Assembly: GCA_934296355.1 (NCBI GenBank)
Contig: CAKRAY010000023.1
Coordinates: forward strand, 1 to 15,644
Reading direction: 5' to 3'
Origin: an uncultured Clostridia bacterium
GTDB lineage: Bacteria > Bacillota > Clostridia > Christensenellales > DTU072
Length of the DNA stretch: 15,644 nucleotides
In this document: positions 2,924-15,644 of the stretch, in pieces
Layout: every line of letters begins with the position of its first letter
How positions within the stretch are numbered: position 1 is the stretch's first letter
The notes under the pieces: generated by a model
Seen by the model: the letters and a program-made list of their open reading frames with translations, nothing else
Told to the model about the DNA's origin: nothing
The model's database searches: none
Program-made: the position numbers and the translations under genes

Positions 2924-5077
2924 ATGGAAAAGAAACTGGAAGTAAAAAATTTGCGGATTTCTTTCCGCACCGACAGCGGAAAGGTACAAGCCGTAAGAGA
3001 CGTAAGTTTCGATCTTTACAAAGGCGAGACGTTGGCGATTGTAGGCGAGTCCGGTAGCGGTAAATCGGTTACCAATAAGGCGATAATGGGCATTTCCGCC
3101 AATAACGCGATAATAGAGAGCGGCGAGATTATTTACGACGGAATGGATCTTCTAAAAATAGACGAAGAACAGTTCCATCAAATCCGCGGCGACAAAATCG
3201 CTATGATTTTCCAAGACCCTATGTCGAGTTTGAACCCGATTATGCGTATAGGCAAGCAAGTAACGGAGGCTATGCTTCTAAAAAACAAAGCAAAACGCCG
3301 TAGCAGTCGTAATATTTTTAACAATACGATGGCGTTACTGTGCAAGTATATGGATTTGACGTACGGCGAAGAGAGCGCGGAGGTCAATAAAGCCGCCGTA
3401 AAGAAGTTCGACAAATTCGAATACAAGCATATTGAACTCGAAGCGAAGTATAATAGAGCGTTCGAGTCCGCGGTCGAAGCAATAGAAACGATAAAAGAAC
3501 TATTGTTAGAGATTGATAAAAATACTTTTGTGAATGCGCCGTCGTTCATAAACAAGATAGTATTAAAAGCCAAAAGTTCCGTAGACCGCTTTGTCGTTGA
3601 AGACGAAGCATCGCTTAAAGGACTCATTCTCAACTTGCAAGAAGCCGAAAAAATTGCGAGAAAAGAGAAAAACTATAAGCGTTGCGTTACTGCGTTGGAA
3701 CAGTTGCTGGTTTGTCTCGAAGCCGCGACAAAACTTGAAAAACCCAACTTTTTCGGACTTGGATACTATTTGACGTACGTAGACGAAAACATACCGAGAC
3801 TTCCCGTAAACGAACTTAACGACAAAACGCACGAGATATTGGCTAACGACTTTATGGAGCCGTTTATAGACCGCGCGGCAAAGGCGGTGGAGTACTCGTT
3901 TAACGAGTCTTTGAAAAACAAGGAACTGGCAATAGCGATCTTGGAAAAGAACGCGGAAGTTTTTAAGCGTGAATTTACCAAAAAAGAAGTGGCGGCGGCG
4001 ATAAAAGAAATGGTCGAAGCCGTTGAAAAATCCATCGACAGACTGGTTTTGGTAAAAGATAATCAGGCTTACGTATTCGCTTCGAGTATCAAAAGCGAGG
4101 TCAGCGGATATTTCGAAAGACTAAAAAAGAATGCGAAAGAAACCAAGCGGTATGAAAAGCAATCGAAAAAGCGCGCCGCATTAGCGGCGAAAGGCAAAGA
4201 GCCGAGTTGGAAGTTAATTCCCGCGGACGTAGTGGAGCCCGAGTTTGTCAGAGCGCAAATATTAAAGATTGTCGAGGACCTTATCGCGCACTATAAAGAA
4301 GAAATCAATGCGAACACGAAGCGTGACCATAGAGCGAGCGCGTTGGCTATCGTTGATTTTCTTAAAGAGAAAGCGTCCGAAGTCGTATACAAAGTAACGC
4401 ACTCGATGGCAAAATCGAAAGCGATTAAGTTAATGGAAGAAGTCGGTATCGCGGAACCCGCAAAACGTTATAAGCAATACCCGTTCGAATTCTCCGGCGG
4501 TATGCGTCAACGTATCGTTATAGCGATCGCGCTTGCGGCTAATCCTGATATTCTTATTTGCGACGAACCTACGACCGCGCTTGACGTTACTATTCAGTCG
4601 CAAATTCTCGAACTGATAAATAAACTTAAGAGAGAAAGGAATCTTTCGATTATATTCATTACGCACGACTTAGGCGTAGTTGCAAACATGGCGGACAGAA
4701 TTGCCGTTATGTATGCGGGTAAAATAGTCGAATTCGGCACGTCGGAAGATATCTTCTATTCTCCCGTACATCCTTATACCTGGGCGCTTTTGTCGAGTAT
4801 GCCCGACCTCGATACCAACGAAAAACTCGAGGCTATTCCGGGTACGCCGCCGAATATGATCTATCCGCCTAAGGGAGACGCGTTTGCGGCAAGAAACAAG
4901 TATGCGTTAAAGATTGATTTTGAAGAGCAACCTCCTATGTTTAAGGTGTCGGAAACGCACAGCGCGGCAACATGGCTGTTGCATCCCAATGCGCCTAAGG
5001 TCGAGCCGCCTAAAATAGTCGTCGACAGAATAAAGAGAATGAAACAAAGAGGAGGTATTGAAGATGGAGAAAAATAA
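2924..5077 (+). CDS. oppD: Oligopeptide ABC importer ATPase OppD with 370-residue helical insertion
   Basis: This cytoplasmic ATPase energises peptide import as a heterodimer with OppF. It has 717 residues; OppD is usually 320-350. Walker A is GESGSGKS (41-48), Q-loop Q97 lies in MIFQDPMSSLNP, the signature is FSGGMRQR (523-530), Walker B is LICDEP with catalytic E548, and the switch is H581. All catalytic parts are intact. After the Q-loop helix (about residue 120) the family sequence breaks off and resumes at about 497 (KAIKLMEEVGIAEPAKRY..YP). The intervening part is rich in Lys, Glu and Ala, lacks TM segments and looks alpha-helical, probably coiled coil. At the C-terminus the conserved motif GCxFxxRCxYAxxxC..ACW has D652, N658, D665 and T683 in place of its four cysteines. 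In some relatives those cysteines hold an iron-sulfur cluster. The ATG is set by GGAGG at 2911-2915. The gene overlaps oppF. Confidence 0.93.
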   Translation: MEKKLEVKNLRISFRTDSGKVQAVRDVSFDLYKGETLAIVGESGSGKSVTNKAIMGISANNAIIESGEIIYDGMDLLKIDEEQFHQIRGDKIAMIFQDPMSSLNPIMRIGKQVTEAMLLKNKAKRRSSRNIFNNTMALLCKYMDLTYGEESAEVNKAAVKKFDKFEYKHIELEAKYNRAFESAVEAIETIKELLLEIDKNTFVNAPSFINKIVLKAKSSVDRFVVEDEASLKGLILNLQEAEKIARKEKNYKRCVTALEQLLVCLEAATKLEKPNFFGLGYYLTYVDENIPRLPVNELNDKTHEILANDFMEPFIDRAAKAVEYSFNESLKNKELAIAILEKNAEVFKREFTKKEVAAAIKEMVEAVEKSIDRLVLVKDNQAYVFASSIKSEVSGYFERLKKNAKETKRYEKQSKKRAALAAKGKEPSWKLIPADVVEPEFVRAQILKIVEDLIAHYKEEINANTKRDHRASALAIVDFLKEKASEVVYKVTHSMAKSKAIKLMEEVGIAEPAKRYKQYPFEFSGGMRQRIVIAIALAANPDILICDEPTTALDVTIQSQILELINKLKRERNLSIIFITHDLGVVANMADRIAVMYAGKIVEFGTSEDIFYSPVHPYTWALLSSMPDLDTNEKLEAIPGTPPNMIYPPKGDAFAARNKYALKIDFEEQPPMFKVSETHSAATWLLHPNAPKVEPPKIVVDRIKRMKQRGGIEDGEK

Positions 5078-6323
5078 TAACGACGTATTATTACGAGTAG
5101 AACATTTATGTCAATACTTCAAAATGGGCAGAGGCGTACTTAAAGCCGTTGACGACGTCAGTTTTGAAATAAAAAAAGGCGAAGTATTCGGCTTGGTGGG
5201 CGAGTCGGGTTGCGGCAAAACAACTACCGGACGCTCTATCATAAAACTATATGACATTACCGGCGGAGATATTTACTTTAAAGGTCAACGCATAGCCGCC
5301 GGAGCAAAAAGTTATAATGACGCGATTAAAGCCGAAAAAACGGCAATGAGAGCGGATATTAAAAAAATCATAGCGGACGAAACGCTTAGCGCCGAAGAAA
5401 AAAATAAGAGGATTATAAAAAGAAGAGAAGAGGCGTATAAGGTTATCTTTGAAAACAGGAAAGAGCGTAGAAAGGCAAAAGACGACCATAAGCATTGCGA
5501 TAGGAAATATTCCAAAGGACTTATAGAAAAGATTAACGAAGAATATCTTCCGAAAATCGACTTAGCTAAAGACGAACAAGAGAGAGCCGCGTTAAACAAG
5601 GAAAGAAGGAAAAAAATAAGACTTGCGTCCAAGGATAAATTCATTACGCAAATCCAAATGATTTTCCAAGACCCGATTGCTTCGCTGGATCCCCGTATGA
5701 CCATTAGGGATATAATCGCCGAAGGACTGATTATTAAAGGCATAAAAGATAAAAAGTATATCGACGAAAAGGTTTACGAGGTTTTGGAAATGGTAGGACT
5801 CGTACGCGAGCATGCGTGCAGATATCCTCACGAATTCTCGGGCGGTCAAAGACAGCGTATCGGCGTTGCTCGTTCCGTAATAATGCAACCGGAATTGATA
5901 ATCGCGGACGAACCGGTATCCGCGCTCGACGTTTCGATTCAGGCTCAGGTAATAAACCTTCTGAACGAATTAAGAGAAAAACTCGGCTTAACGATCTTGT
6001 TCATTGCGCACGACTTGTCCGTAGTAAAGTATTTTAGCGATAGAATAGGCGTTATGTATTACGGAAATATGGTAGAGTTAGCGTCAAGCGACGAACTCTT
6101 TGCAAATCCGTTGCATCCTTATACAAAATCCTTGTTGTCGGCAATTCCTCTTCCCGACCCGATTTATGAAAAGAATCGTCAGCGTATAACGTATAATCCT
6201 TTGGTAGAGCATGATTATACCGTTGACAAACCGAGTTTCAGAGAGGTAAAGCCGGGTCATTTTGTAAAGTGTAACGACGCCGAGTTCGCAAGATATCAAG
6301 AAATATTGAACAGTGAAAAGTAA
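5064..6323 (+). CDS. oppF: Oligopeptide ABC importer ATPase OppF with charged insertion
   Basis: This is the second ATPase of the Opp complex, 419 residues from ATG 5064 (OppF is usually near 320). Walker A is GESGCGKT (46-53), the Q-loop is MIFQDPIASLDPRM (Q202), the signature is SGGQRQR (259-265), Walker B is IADEP with E283, and H316 is the switch. The C-terminal oligopeptide-transporter extension (HPYTKSLLSAIPLPDP) is present and ends in a KPGHFVKCND tail. About 115 residues (about 78-195), extremely rich in Lys, Arg and Glu, are inserted between the strand after Walker A and the Q-loop. This is a different place from the OppD insertion. I chose ATG 5064 because AGGAGG at 5050-5055 sits 8 bases upstream; a TTG at 5058 is less likely. 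The start lies 14 bases inside oppD, which suggests translational coupling. Confidence 0.93.
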   Translation: MEKNNNDVLLRVEHLCQYFKMGRGVLKAVDDVSFEIKKGEVFGLVGESGCGKTTTGRSIIKLYDITGGDIYFKGQRIAAGAKSYNDAIKAEKTAMRADIKKIIADETLSAEEKNKRIIKRREEAYKVIFENRKERRKAKDDHKHCDRKYSKGLIEKINEEYLPKIDLAKDEQERAALNKERRKKIRLASKDKFITQIQMIFQDPIASLDPRMTIRDIIAEGLIIKGIKDKKYIDEKVYEVLEMVGLVREHACRYPHEFSGGQRQRIGVARSVIMQPELIIADEPVSALDVSIQAQVINLLNELREKLGLTILFIAHDLSVVKYFSDRIGVMYYGNMVELASSDELFANPLHPYTKSLLSAIPLPDPIYEKNRQRITYNPLVEHDYTVDKPSFREVKPGHFVKCNDAEFARYQEILNSEK

Positions 6324-10599: not shown

Positions 10600-10815
10600 G
10601 TTAGATACGATTGTTTTTTATAGCGATTTACCTGGTTCGTAAGCGCGTTTTATAGAAACGAACGGCGCGCCGAATTAAACCGCGCCCCCCCTAAGGAATA
10701 TTTTACTATAAAATAAGTTCGATGTGAATACCCGAACGTAAAATGAAGATTTATATAAGGATAATGAAATCTATAAATATATATATAAAAACGCGATTTT
10801 TTGTAAGCAGACTTT
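10600..10815. other. Intergenic spacer without a supported gene
   Basis: I see no gene. The first part is GC-rich with short GCGC tracts, a weak 6-bp inverted repeat (GGCGCG 10664-10669 with CGCGCC 10681-10686) and a run of seven Cs. The second part is strongly AT-rich. A short inverted repeat AGACT/AGTCT at the end of the XRE gene (about 10809-10825), followed on the minus strand by a run of As, is too weak to call as that gene's terminator. An open frame starting at 10743 is antisense to the XRE gene and was rejected. Confidence 0.5.
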
Positions 10816-11028
10816 TTAATAGTCTTTCTTGCCGAACAAATAATCGAGAGATACGTCGTATATCTCGCAAAGTTTACTCAGTTGGTCGTAATTACATTCG
10901 AAAATGCCTTTTTCGAAACGTTGATAGACGGGTTGCGCCACGCCCAAGCGGCTGGCAACCTCACGTTGCGACATTTTTAACGCCAGTCTACATTCTTTAA
11001 GTCTGTTTCCTACTTCAACTTTTAACAT
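10816..11028 (-). CDS. XRE-family helix-turn-helix regulator
   Basis: A compact 70-residue single-domain DNA-binding protein of the Cro/C1 type: VGNRLKECRLALKMSQREVASRLGVAQPVYQRFEKG, then a two-helix tail ending LSKLCEIYDVSLDYLFGKKDY. It has no sensor or peptidase domain, so it probably acts as a simple dimeric repressor. I chose ATG at 11028; a TTG at 11037 (three residues longer) is possible, and neither has a strong ribosome site (only TTGGA just upstream). It diverges from the beta-helix-like gene at 11204. The 175-base space between them holds a consensus promoter and two palindromic sites, so regulation of that neighbour, and possibly of itself, is the natural inference. Confidence 0.88.
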   Translation of the reverse strand: MLKVEVGNRLKECRLALKMSQREVASRLGVAQPVYQRFEKGIFECNYDQLSKLCEIYDVSLDYLFGKKDY

Positions 11029-11055
11029 TTTTTCCAAAAAAATATAATTTTATTA

Positions 11056-11084
11056 TTGACATAATGATACAGTGAATGTATAAT
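11056..11084 (+). promoter_or_regulatory. Consensus sigma-A promoter for the 11204 gene
   Basis: TTGACA at 11056-11061 and TATAAT at 11079-11084 are separated by exactly 17 bases: a perfect match to the housekeeping consensus at both hexamers. Transcription would begin near 11091, leaving a leader of about 113 bases before ATG 11204. Confidence 0.9.
11066..11082. promoter_or_regulatory. Operator copy 1 (likely XRE site), inside promoter
   Basis: GATACA-5 bases-TGTATA, a near-perfect dyad (outermost pair G/A mismatched), lies in the promoter spacer and overlaps the -10 box. A protein bound here would block RNA polymerase. The second copy is centred 32 bp downstream. Confidence 0.65.
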
Positions 11085-11097
11085 AAAAATAATAAAA

Positions 11098-11114
11098 GAT
11101 ACACTTAATGTATC
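11098..11114. promoter_or_regulatory. Operator copy 2 (likely XRE site), just past start of transcription
   Basis: GATACA-5 bases-TGTATC is a perfect 6-bp dyad. It shares GATACA, the AA before TGTAT, and the 17-bp length with copy 1. The 32-bp centre spacing is about three helical turns, so two dimers would sit on the same DNA face. Confidence 0.65.
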
Positions 11115-11203
11115 AAAAAATGCATTTTAACGTTTACTATACCGGCAACCGAATTTCATAAAGGTGCGTTATAGAATAAAAAAAAATTTTAGGAGAGGGT
11201 AAA

Positions 11204-14169: not shown

Positions 14170-15282
14170 TTACTTTTCCCACGGGAAAACGTATTGGGTA
14201 AGTCCGAGGTCGTCGCGGACTTTGCTCATTTCTTTTTGTACCGCTTCGTTAATCGGTACGCCGGTGTCTTTTCTGGATTGCCATACGAGGTATTCTTTTT
14301 CTCCGGCGGAGTAGATGCGGTCGCAACCGGGAGCCTTTCTGGACGCTCTTACCGAACGAATGATATCGCCTGCCTTCTTTCTGCAAAGTTCTTCGCCGAG
14401 GAAGTGGTTGGTATCGATTGCAATAAAGAAGTGACCGAGGTGGTAAGGAATCTTGTTGCCGTTTTCGTCTTTACCGTTAAGGTCTTTACCGTAAATACCG
14501 TCTTGGAGTACTGCGGAGAGGAGTTCTACTACCATAGCGTAGCCGTAACCCTTGTATCCGCCGAGGCTTTCGCCGATACCGCCGAGGGTGGTAAGAGCCG
14601 CTTTGCCGCTACGAATCATTTTAAGCGCTTCGCCCGCGTCGCCTTCAACGGGTTTGCCGTTGAGATCGACCATCGTTCCGGGGTGAACGTTTTCTCCGAT
14701 TCTCGCATAGTATTCGATTTTACCGTTTTGCGTAATGGAAGTAGCGCAGTCGATAAGGAAGTCAAAGGGTTCGTCGGTAGGAATACCGATAGTAAGAGGG
14801 TTAGTACCGAACATACCTTCTACGCCGAACGTAGGAGCAACCGACGGACGAGCGTTCGTTCCGGTAATACCGATACAGCCTTGTTTGCAAGCCATGGTGG
14901 GATAGTAACCCGCGATACCGTAGTGGCAAGAGTTACGAACGACTACCATACCCATACCGTATTCTTTCGCCTTTTTGATAGCGAGGGACATAGCTTTGTA
15001 GCCGATTACTTGACCCATACCGTCGTGACCGTCTACGACAGCCGTGGTGGGCGTTTCTTTAACAATTTCGAAGTTGGTAACGGGGTTTTGAATACCGTCG
15101 TTAATTCTGTCTATATAAATAGGCTTAAAACGATTGCAACCGTGGCTTTCGATACCGCGTCTGTCGCTTTCGAGTAAAACGTCGGCGCAAATCGCAGCGT
15201 CTTCTCTGGGAACGCCTACGCCTACGAACGCGTCGATGACGAAGTCGTTAGCGGTTTTCCAATCTAAATTCATCTTGGGCAT
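14170..15282 (-). CDS. Malate/L-lactate dehydrogenase family (Ldh2/YlbC type) oxidoreductase
   Basis: A 370-residue NAD(P)-dependent 2-hydroxyacid dehydrogenase of the malate/lactate/ureidoglycolate/sulfolactate family, unrelated in fold to classical lactate and malate dehydrogenases. Family marks are RRGIESHGCNRF (catalytic His47), VVRNSCHYGIAGYY (113-127, His120), GTNPLTIGIPTDEPFDFLIDCATS (159-182), GGYKGYGYAMVVELLS (241-256) and GHFFIAIDTNHF (283-294). Length is normal for the family. The substrate cannot be fixed from sequence, but the next gene is a malic enzyme, so malate to oxaloacetate is the favoured guess; lactate or sulfolactate remain possible. The start at 15282 is supported by AAGGAG (15298-15293); ATG 15273 is an alternative. 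It is the first gene of the operon, behind a strong promoter at 15343-15371. Confidence 0.9.
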   Translation of the reverse strand: MPKMNLDWKTANDFVIDAFVGVGVPREDAAICADVLLESDRRGIESHGCNRFKPIYIDRINDGIQNPVTNFEIVKETPTTAVVDGHDGMGQVIGYKAMSLAIKKAKEYGMGMVVVRNSCHYGIAGYYPTMACKQGCIGITGTNARPSVAPTFGVEGMFGTNPLTIGIPTDEPFDFLIDCATSITQNGKIEYYARIGENVHPGTMVDLNGKPVEGDAGEALKMIRSGKAALTTLGGIGESLGGYKGYGYAMVVELLSAVLQDGIYGKDLNGKDENGNKIPYHLGHFFIAIDTNHFLGEELCRKKAGDIIRSVRASRKAPGCDRIYSAGEKEYLVWQSRKDTGVPINEAVQKEMSKVRDDLGLTQYVFPWEK

Positions 15283-15342: not shown

Positions 15343-15371
15343 ATAATACCAAATAATATATTATTTGTCAA
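15343..15371 (-). promoter_or_regulatory. Sigma-A promoter of the malate-enzyme operon
   Basis: On the minus strand TTGACA (15371-15366) and TATTAT (15348-15343) are separated by 17 bases, giving a start of transcription near 15336 and a leader of about 55 bases to ATG 15282. Confidence 0.87.
15350..15367. promoter_or_regulatory. 18-bp perfect palindrome in promoter spacer, possible operator
   Basis: CAAATAATATATTATTTG is a perfect dyad that overlaps the -35 box by two bases and fills nearly the whole spacer. The location is right for a repressor site. It does not match Rex, Fur or the XRE operator sites at 11066-11114. AT-rich sequence makes chance palindromes likelier, so the call is moderate. 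Confidence 0.5.
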
Positions 15372-15411
15372 TACAACTTGGCAAATGAAGCGGCAACGGA
15401 AGCGTGTGACG

Positions 15412-15477
15412 GCAACGTGTGACGTTGCATCCAATCTTCGCGAACCGACAGTATTCTTTAATAAGCATATAGCCGCG
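15412..15477. repeat. Hairpin repeat unit A (66 bp)
   Basis: A 6-bp stem GCAACG/CGTTGC (15412-15417 with 15423-15428) with loop TGTGA is followed by 49 bases ending in CTTTAATAAGCATATAGCCGCG. It abuts unit B directly; the two align without gaps with 51 of 66 bases identical. A 15-base fragment identical to the start of unit B and its flank (CGGAAGCGTGTGACG) lies just upstream at 15397-15411, as if left by an earlier duplication. Confidence 0.85.
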
Positions 15478-15543
15478 GAAGCGTGTGACGCTTCACCCAA
15501 GTTACGCGAATACTCCGTATACTTTAATAAGCGTATAGCCGCG
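15478..15543. repeat. Hairpin repeat unit B (66 bp)
   Basis: A 6-bp stem GAAGCG/CGCTTC (15478-15483 with 15489-15494) with the same TGTGA loop is followed by the same 3' segment (ACTTTAATAAGCGTATAGCCGCG). Compared with unit A, stem positions 2 and 4 and their partners 16 and 14 have both changed, so pairing is kept (C-G to A-T, A-T to G-C). Confidence 0.85.
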
Positions 15544-15610
15544 AATAAAATTTTATTTAGCGAAGAGAAAAGGTTAACGGTATAATACGAAAATACGAAA
15601 ACGACGCTTT

Positions 15611-15644
15611 TGCAACGTACGCACGTTGCATCGCAGTTTCGCGA
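15611..15644. repeat. Hairpin repeat unit C, cut by window edge
   Basis: An 8-bp stem TGCAACGT/ACGTTGCA (15611-15618 with 15623-15630) with loop ACGC is followed by ATCGCAGTTTCGCGA, which matches the segment after the unit A stem at 11 of 15 positions, in register. It starts 68 bases after unit B; that spacer (15544-15611) is AT-rich, starts with a 14-bp palindrome AATAAAATTTTATT, and shows no gene. Confidence 0.65.

Follow-up and report, generated by a model that had tools for sequence, protein, structure and literature searches.

A GGRT-tagged hairpin array at the end of a Clostridia contig, probably part of a dispersed mosaic repeat

Why should the hairpins of two adjacent repeat units differ solely by changes that leave their stems paired? 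The question is raised by the last 248 bases (15397..15644) of a 15,644-nt stretch of DNA from an uncultured Clostridia bacterium, here called the window, whose contig end falls inside the hairpin array. Read on the minus strand, the array opens with hairpin C, which a 69-nt spacer separates from unit B; unit A and a lone hairpin arm follow. The features concerned are the following.

14170..15282, minus strand: gene for an Ldh_2 family dehydrogenase (LDH), flanking the element and outside it
15343..15371, minus strand: sigma-70-like LDH promoter, TTGACA-17-TATTAT, a consensus match only, 25 bases from the array
15397..15409, minus strand: lone 3′ hairpin arm, part of an exact 15-nt repeat of the start of unit B that runs to 15411 (15397-15411)
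15410..15475, minus strand: unit A, made up of a type I tagged hairpin and a linker; its hairpin scores 34.8 bits against our model R1, among whose building rows it is
15412..15428, minus strand: hairpin A, 7-bp stem GCAACGT/ACGTTGC, loop CAC on the minus strand, tag GGAT at 15429-15432
15476..15541, minus strand: unit B, made up of a type II tagged hairpin and a linker; its hairpin, likewise a building row of R1, scores 37.7 bits
15478..15494, minus strand: hairpin B, 7-bp stem GAAGCGT/ACGCTTC, loop CAC on the minus strand, tag GGGT at 15495-15498
15542..15610, minus strand: spacer that separates unit C from unit B and belongs to the element, its translation recurring in the predicted proteins P0121, P0122, P0124 and P0125
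15611..15644, minus strand: unit C, cut by the contig end; type III hairpin at 15611-15630 with 8 bp and the plus-strand loop ACGC, tag CGAT at 15630-15633

Since the closest relative of the LDH gene is that of genome G001 (91% identity in protein, 83% in DNA), the window was placed in the family of G001, to which it would belong on the strength of this gene. Elsewhere in the window, an OppD-like ABC ATPase of 717 residues (2924-5077) carries a long insert between two ABC_tran stretches, its OppF-like neighbour (5058-6323) also matches in two stretches, and a small Cro/C1-type HTH protein (HTH_3) is encoded at 10822-11028 on the minus strand within DNA that is conserved around 10813-11132 in several relatives.

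The initial annotation had described A and B as adjacent, gap-free 66-nt units with 51 of 66 positions identical, and had placed four of the 15 differences in the stem, where they form two exact compensatory pairs. Alignment of the two units bears this out, and the two 17-nt hairpins differ at nothing else than these pairs (unit positions 4-18 and 6-16). A hairpin is indeed present in both units, but the TGTGA loop on a 6-bp stem has to be redrawn: the outer T and A of that loop also pair, so that the stem has 7 bp and the loop is GTG. A third unit with another stem and loop had been noted as well and is found in hairpin C; with 6.2 bits (E 7.4) it scores weakly against R1. On the minus strand all three stems are preceded by an unpaired tag (GGAT-GCAACG in A, GGGT-GAAGCG in B and CGAT-GCAACGT in C). 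Random placement of 15 differences left the seven pairs unbroken, with two or more compensations among them, in 0.05% of 200,000 trials, a figure uncorrected for the choice of place. The folding energy of the whole units A and B is ordinary (z 0.48 and −0.97, plus strand), while the three hairpins alone, folded as DNA, are modestly unusual (z −2.0, −2.5 and −3.7). A separate perfect hairpin of 14 bp with a 3-nt loop lies at 60-125 of the window, within a larger imperfect palindrome (z −9.1 versus shuffles) and with no T-run right behind it.

Copies of the window type could be seen through translation. The open minus frame of the array (115 aa), searched against a protein set, found P0121, P0122 and, weakly, P0123 (E 0.82); an alignment of these added P0124, P0125 and P0126, and P0127 at E 9.8 was left uncounted. 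The six are known from translations alone and all come from ENA, with longest contigs of 517 to 1,122 bases for four of them and of 7.8 kb and 56 kb for the remaining two. P0121, P0122, P0124 and P0125 share a spacer 'KSV..SY..VN..FLD..L', followed by a linker 'AAICLLK.T..SR' and then by a tagged hairpin, which reads GEASHAS for type II, DATSHVA for type I and DATCVRC for type III. The translated counterparts of unit C (DATCVRC) occur in P0121, P0122 and P0125. After the first linker stands type II in the window, P0121, P0122 and P0124 and type III in P0125; after the second linker the window has type I, P0121 type II and P0122 type III. Hairpin types are thus swapped at equivalent positions, which makes the tag plus hairpin an exchangeable module.

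That the frame is open throughout the array and has relatives in the protein set might suggest a real repeat protein of 22-residue units, but this reading is hardly credible and was rejected: differences between A and B fall on the three codon positions without pattern (5, 4 and 6), the hairpin types would encode the unlike peptides given above, no Pfam match was obtained, and the frame continues through the LDH promoter-like site. P0121 to P0126 are probably spurious, being translated repeats.

At the DNA level, the basic tagged hairpin (GGRT followed by GNARCG, a loop and CGYTNC on the minus strand) was sought by pattern and by model. One pattern was found in 1 of 396 genomes of the order, another in 2 of the 396, with 2 of 46 genomes in the family of G062 and, in the class, 2 of 391, one of them (G562) judged to be chance, its arms not being complementary. 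With model R1, built mostly from G062 hairpins, 4 of the 396 genomes of the order gave matches at E≤3e-4 (20 candidates scored per genome), namely G062, G179, G225 and G408, all within the family list of G062. Among 150 candidates scored in each, 135 matches in G062 and 81 in G179 reached E≤0.01. In the family of G001, 34 of 38 genomes have no R1 match at E≤0.1 (150 candidates scored per genome) and four have one each. That of G009, GGGTGCAGCGTCACGCTGCTG, is identical letter for letter to a G179 copy in locus L229 and was accepted as a true copy, G009 being a genome of the window's probable family. The G001 match may be an imperfect intergenic copy, and those of G031 and G027 are likely chance. 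What the relatives share is the tagged hairpin and not the 66-nt linker. The exact linker pattern had no match in genome contigs or viral contigs, BLAST of the array gave none in 22 relatives at E≤0.001 and only chance-level pieces in 40 family genomes (best E 0.02), and no plasmid match was seen. A 35-nt match to a Microviridae phage (E 0.1) was judged to be chance. In viral contigs the hairpin patterns had no match; five loci found there with a generic hairpin pattern were also set aside as chance, four having non-complementary arms and L118 pairing only via two G-T wobbles, and none of 71 pattern matches from an LDH search was confirmed. The hairpin is patchily distributed: copies abound in one group of relatives, occur in the lineage of the window and are found as traces elsewhere. 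Using simple ORF calls, 47 of 53 hairpin cores in the G062 and G179 loci fall in no ORF of 120 aa or more, whereas 72% of random positions in the same loci do. The suggestion of a dispersed or mobile hairpin element in the initial annotation is supported by the translated copies, by the copy numbers in G062 and G179 and by the order-wide model search.

In G062 the hairpins belong in part to larger composites. One composite used as a BLAST query recovered 89 segments in G062 and 4 in G179. Fifteen pairs of terminal inverted repeats (TIRs) of ~26 bp, of the form TACCC[GA]TA-N-CCAACC[CT]CAGTAGAACA, bound elements of 130-358 bp that are intergenic and palindromic. Hairpins found by pattern lie inside 4 of these 15 (L175, L182, L198 and L213, one or two each), and tagged hairpins also occur outside TIR-bounded elements. 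The outer nine letters of the TIRs were compared in 14 of the 15 elements, L204 with its three TIR hits being left out. The two arms agree better inside one copy than across copies, with 6 mismatches versus 13.9 in shuffles, and 2 versus 10.4 in the 13 elements without L213, one end of which is degraded. The elements begin and end with TA, which could be a TA target duplication. One inner TIR position differs constantly between the two ends in most of them (e.g. L174 and L191), with C at the CACTTTAATCG end but T at the CACATTTTAC one, and so shows which way the element is oriented. Of 29 G062 modules found by their body sequence, five have no hairpin; stems deviate at 16% of positions versus 6.5% for bodies over all 29, and at 10 of 288 positions (3.5%, counted by hand) once these five are removed. 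Like the window contig, the G062 contigs C6, C15, C18, C19 and C20 end in or near copies.

The lone arm of the window also has parallels. Within 20 nt behind a full hairpin, the 3′ arm of another hairpin was seen in 1 of 2 cases in the window, 3 of 52 in G062 (one doubtful) and 13 of 32 in G179, with none of 6 in G408 and none of 1 in G009; the pattern used missed the G225 copy. Such a junction explains 15397-15409, which may be the remnant of a collapsed fourth unit. Eight of the 17 lone-arm junctions join at CGTC, and in the G179 loci L228, L229, L231 and L237 chains of two or more lone 3′ arms stand behind a full hairpin.

Covariation across copies had been proposed as a check on the folded form, and it is supported in hairpin sets from relatives. 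Alignment A3 comprises 31 distinct rows picked mainly by their upstream flank: from 134 flank-selected rows we kept those distinct 23-mers that resembled this hairpin, bore a GGRY or TGGT tag and had 5 or more pairs, and two further rows came from elsewhere. The cut fragment L199, the N-containing L188 and rows judged unrelated were left out, among them some that pair at 5 or 6 positions (e.g. L177 and L204). Since rows were chosen by pairing, and the structure was derived from the A3 sequences themselves, A3 favours the structure somewhat. Within it 94.9% of cells are paired versus 85.3% in shuffles, double-change cells number 23 versus 6.3, and the covariation score is 0.370 versus 0.173 in shuffles and 0.041 to 0.180 when the structure is slid along. 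No excess over shuffles is seen in the number of pairs that carry a double change (3 versus 2.9) or in that of further pair types (8 versus 8.1). Three of the seven pairs covary, the two inner ones and the closing one, partly by single-pair steps. Alignment A4 (24 distinct rows from 55) agrees, and as its rows were picked by the model its counts lean to the structure. The tag is GGRT in most rows of both alignments. Single compensated pairs link the stems GGAGCG, GAAGCG, GCAGCG and GCAACG, and in both main hairpin types the stem closes with T-A or C-G. A and B thus represent two out of a wider range of states. Neither a lack of further copies nor uncompensated stem changes, the outcomes that the initial annotation had regarded as fatal to its view, were seen in the relatives' genomes searched.

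The paired changes had been taken as a sign of selection for the folded form. Stem mismatches comprise 8 G-T and 8 A-C, without strand preference, and this equality does not support selection at the RNA level. Selection for the fold does not follow from the paired changes, since template switching, reported to create hairpins and to keep them up (PMC8794818), would leave an identical pattern when it corrects palindromes. One arm would be rewritten from the other, and the hairpins would be passive sequences that stay palindromic. To this mutational account, the main rival to selection, we give a little less than an even chance; it concerns why the pairing persists and is compatible with a dispersed repeat. 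It draws support from the mismatches, which favour neither strand, and from the TIR tips, which also match within copies. The orientation of the loop speaks against it, being constant with an inverted CAC loop in none of the 31 A3 rows, as do G-T intermediates at the covarying pairs.

The position upstream of the LDH gene, together with the compensatory changes, might also point to a structured RNA or cis-regulatory element of that gene kept by selection for an RNA fold. We consider this very improbable. The array lies upstream and not downstream of the promoter-like site and has no Rfam match at gathering score, which likewise counts against the small RNA suggested earlier; G-T and A-C mismatches are equal, copies adjoin unrelated genes, and the 80 LDH loci from relatives, some of which do not reach upstream of the gene, yield no R1 match at E≤1. 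Any effect of the array on the flanking LDH gene is probably incidental. Equally little credence can be given to an array of protein-binding sites, whether an operator or sites for a nucleoid protein. Tandem palindromes with a short conserved core beside a promoter-like site would suit such sites, but an operator of a single gene sits ill with 135 model matches in G062 and with stem letters that change in pairs; a nucleoid-type protein is conceivable.

In our view the array likely belongs to a dispersed mosaic repeat of the REP, BIME, BOX or MITE kind, a new GGRT-tagged family that is probably non-autonomous and mobile. Its copies are many, modular in order, mostly placed outside ORFs, covarying in their stems and shared between lineages. 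The basic unit of ~21 nt starts from the unpaired GGRT and has a stem of 6-7 bp, in which covariation affects two inner pairs and the closing one, around a short loop (CAC, CCC or TCA, for example). Linkers join tagged hairpins into composite, mostly intergenic elements. In the proposed model these would spread within a genome, probably as non-autonomous DNA, through a transposase acting on the hairpin or the terminal repeats. Deletions running from a CG dinucleotide of one hairpin to that of its neighbour might remove units and leave lone 3′ arms behind, and pairing may be kept by constraint on the hairpin DNA, by palindrome correction during replication, or by both. Y1_Tnp is present in G062 (at one place, with one stop inside) and in G179; the tagged hairpin was not found in the 3-kb loci L119-L122 around the Y1 transposases of these genomes (L123 overlaps L122), nor a transposase beside hairpins in the loci examined. 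The G062 frame with the stop is IS200-like and lies in L120 (G062:C20, around 1369-1683 of the contig), away from the hairpin repeat.

A bolder reading, which we hold to be doubtful, is that of a third REP superfamily, GGRT-tagged, in Clostridia and moved between families. Some enzyme would read the tag and the fold, tolerate paired changes at defined stem positions and build both hairpin clusters and TIR-bounded composites. The dispersed repeat that we favour adds a differently tagged palindromic family to a large uncultured gut lineage, and with its conserved tag, its lone-arm junctions and the defined pairs that covary, a mobilising or palindrome-correcting mechanism can be tested. It also matters for metagenomes: contigs break at such repeats, and predicted proteins like P0121-P0126 are probably translated repeats.

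How does this family compare with known systems? With CRISPR arrays it shares a period near 66 nt, and this identity was rejected as the differences are spread over the whole unit rather than confined to spacers. Rfam 15 gave no match at gathering score in the window or in seven G062 loci (one chance-level hit, E 4.1). Among the papers listed by our literature search, which covered little of the subscription literature, none dealt with Christensenellales repeats, to judge by titles and the starts of abstracts. In Streptococcus pneumoniae, BOX elements are built of modules and may contain ORFs (PMC3049150). They share with the array a composite make-up with a variable number of inner modules, predicted stem-loops and ORFs that run through the repeat. 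The modular order with variable number and type is seen here in the swapped hairpin types and in the one or two hairpins per TIR-bounded G062 element. BOX differs in sequence and module structure, and the likeness is drawn from descriptions, not from sequence comparison. Prokaryotic MITEs fold and tend to sit between genes (PMC10969869), and the G062 composites with their size, TIRs, intergenic position and palindromic form resemble them. TIRs are known here from G062 composites only, the outer end of the window element lying beyond the contig, and unlike in MITEs the GGRT hairpin also occurs outside TIR-bounded elements.

The closest likeness is with REPs, for whose dimers and clusters the term BIME is used. 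REPs carry unpaired 4-nt tags and mostly have stems of 6-9 bp, and their subfamilies differ in complementary stem residues that replace one another (Di Nocera 2013, PMC3733652). The array hairpin shares with them the short stem of this length, the unpaired 4-nt tag, the many copies, the mostly extragenic position, the alternative complementary stems and the clustering; a palindrome of 20-40 bp in high copy number was found in G062 (135) and G179 (81), and in the loci of both it lies mostly outside coding regions. It differs in its tag, GGRT (CGAT in unit C) instead of GTAG or CGTC, and in its occurrence in Clostridia, outside the groups listed in that text. As for the RAYT transposases that go with GTAG REPs, none was found beside copies of the GGRT hairpin in the loci examined. 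The CGTC that follows some hairpins is the start of a lone arm and not a constant tag. With neither GTAG nor CGTC as its tag, the array hairpin does not belong to those REP superfamilies, though it is similar to them in the features tested.
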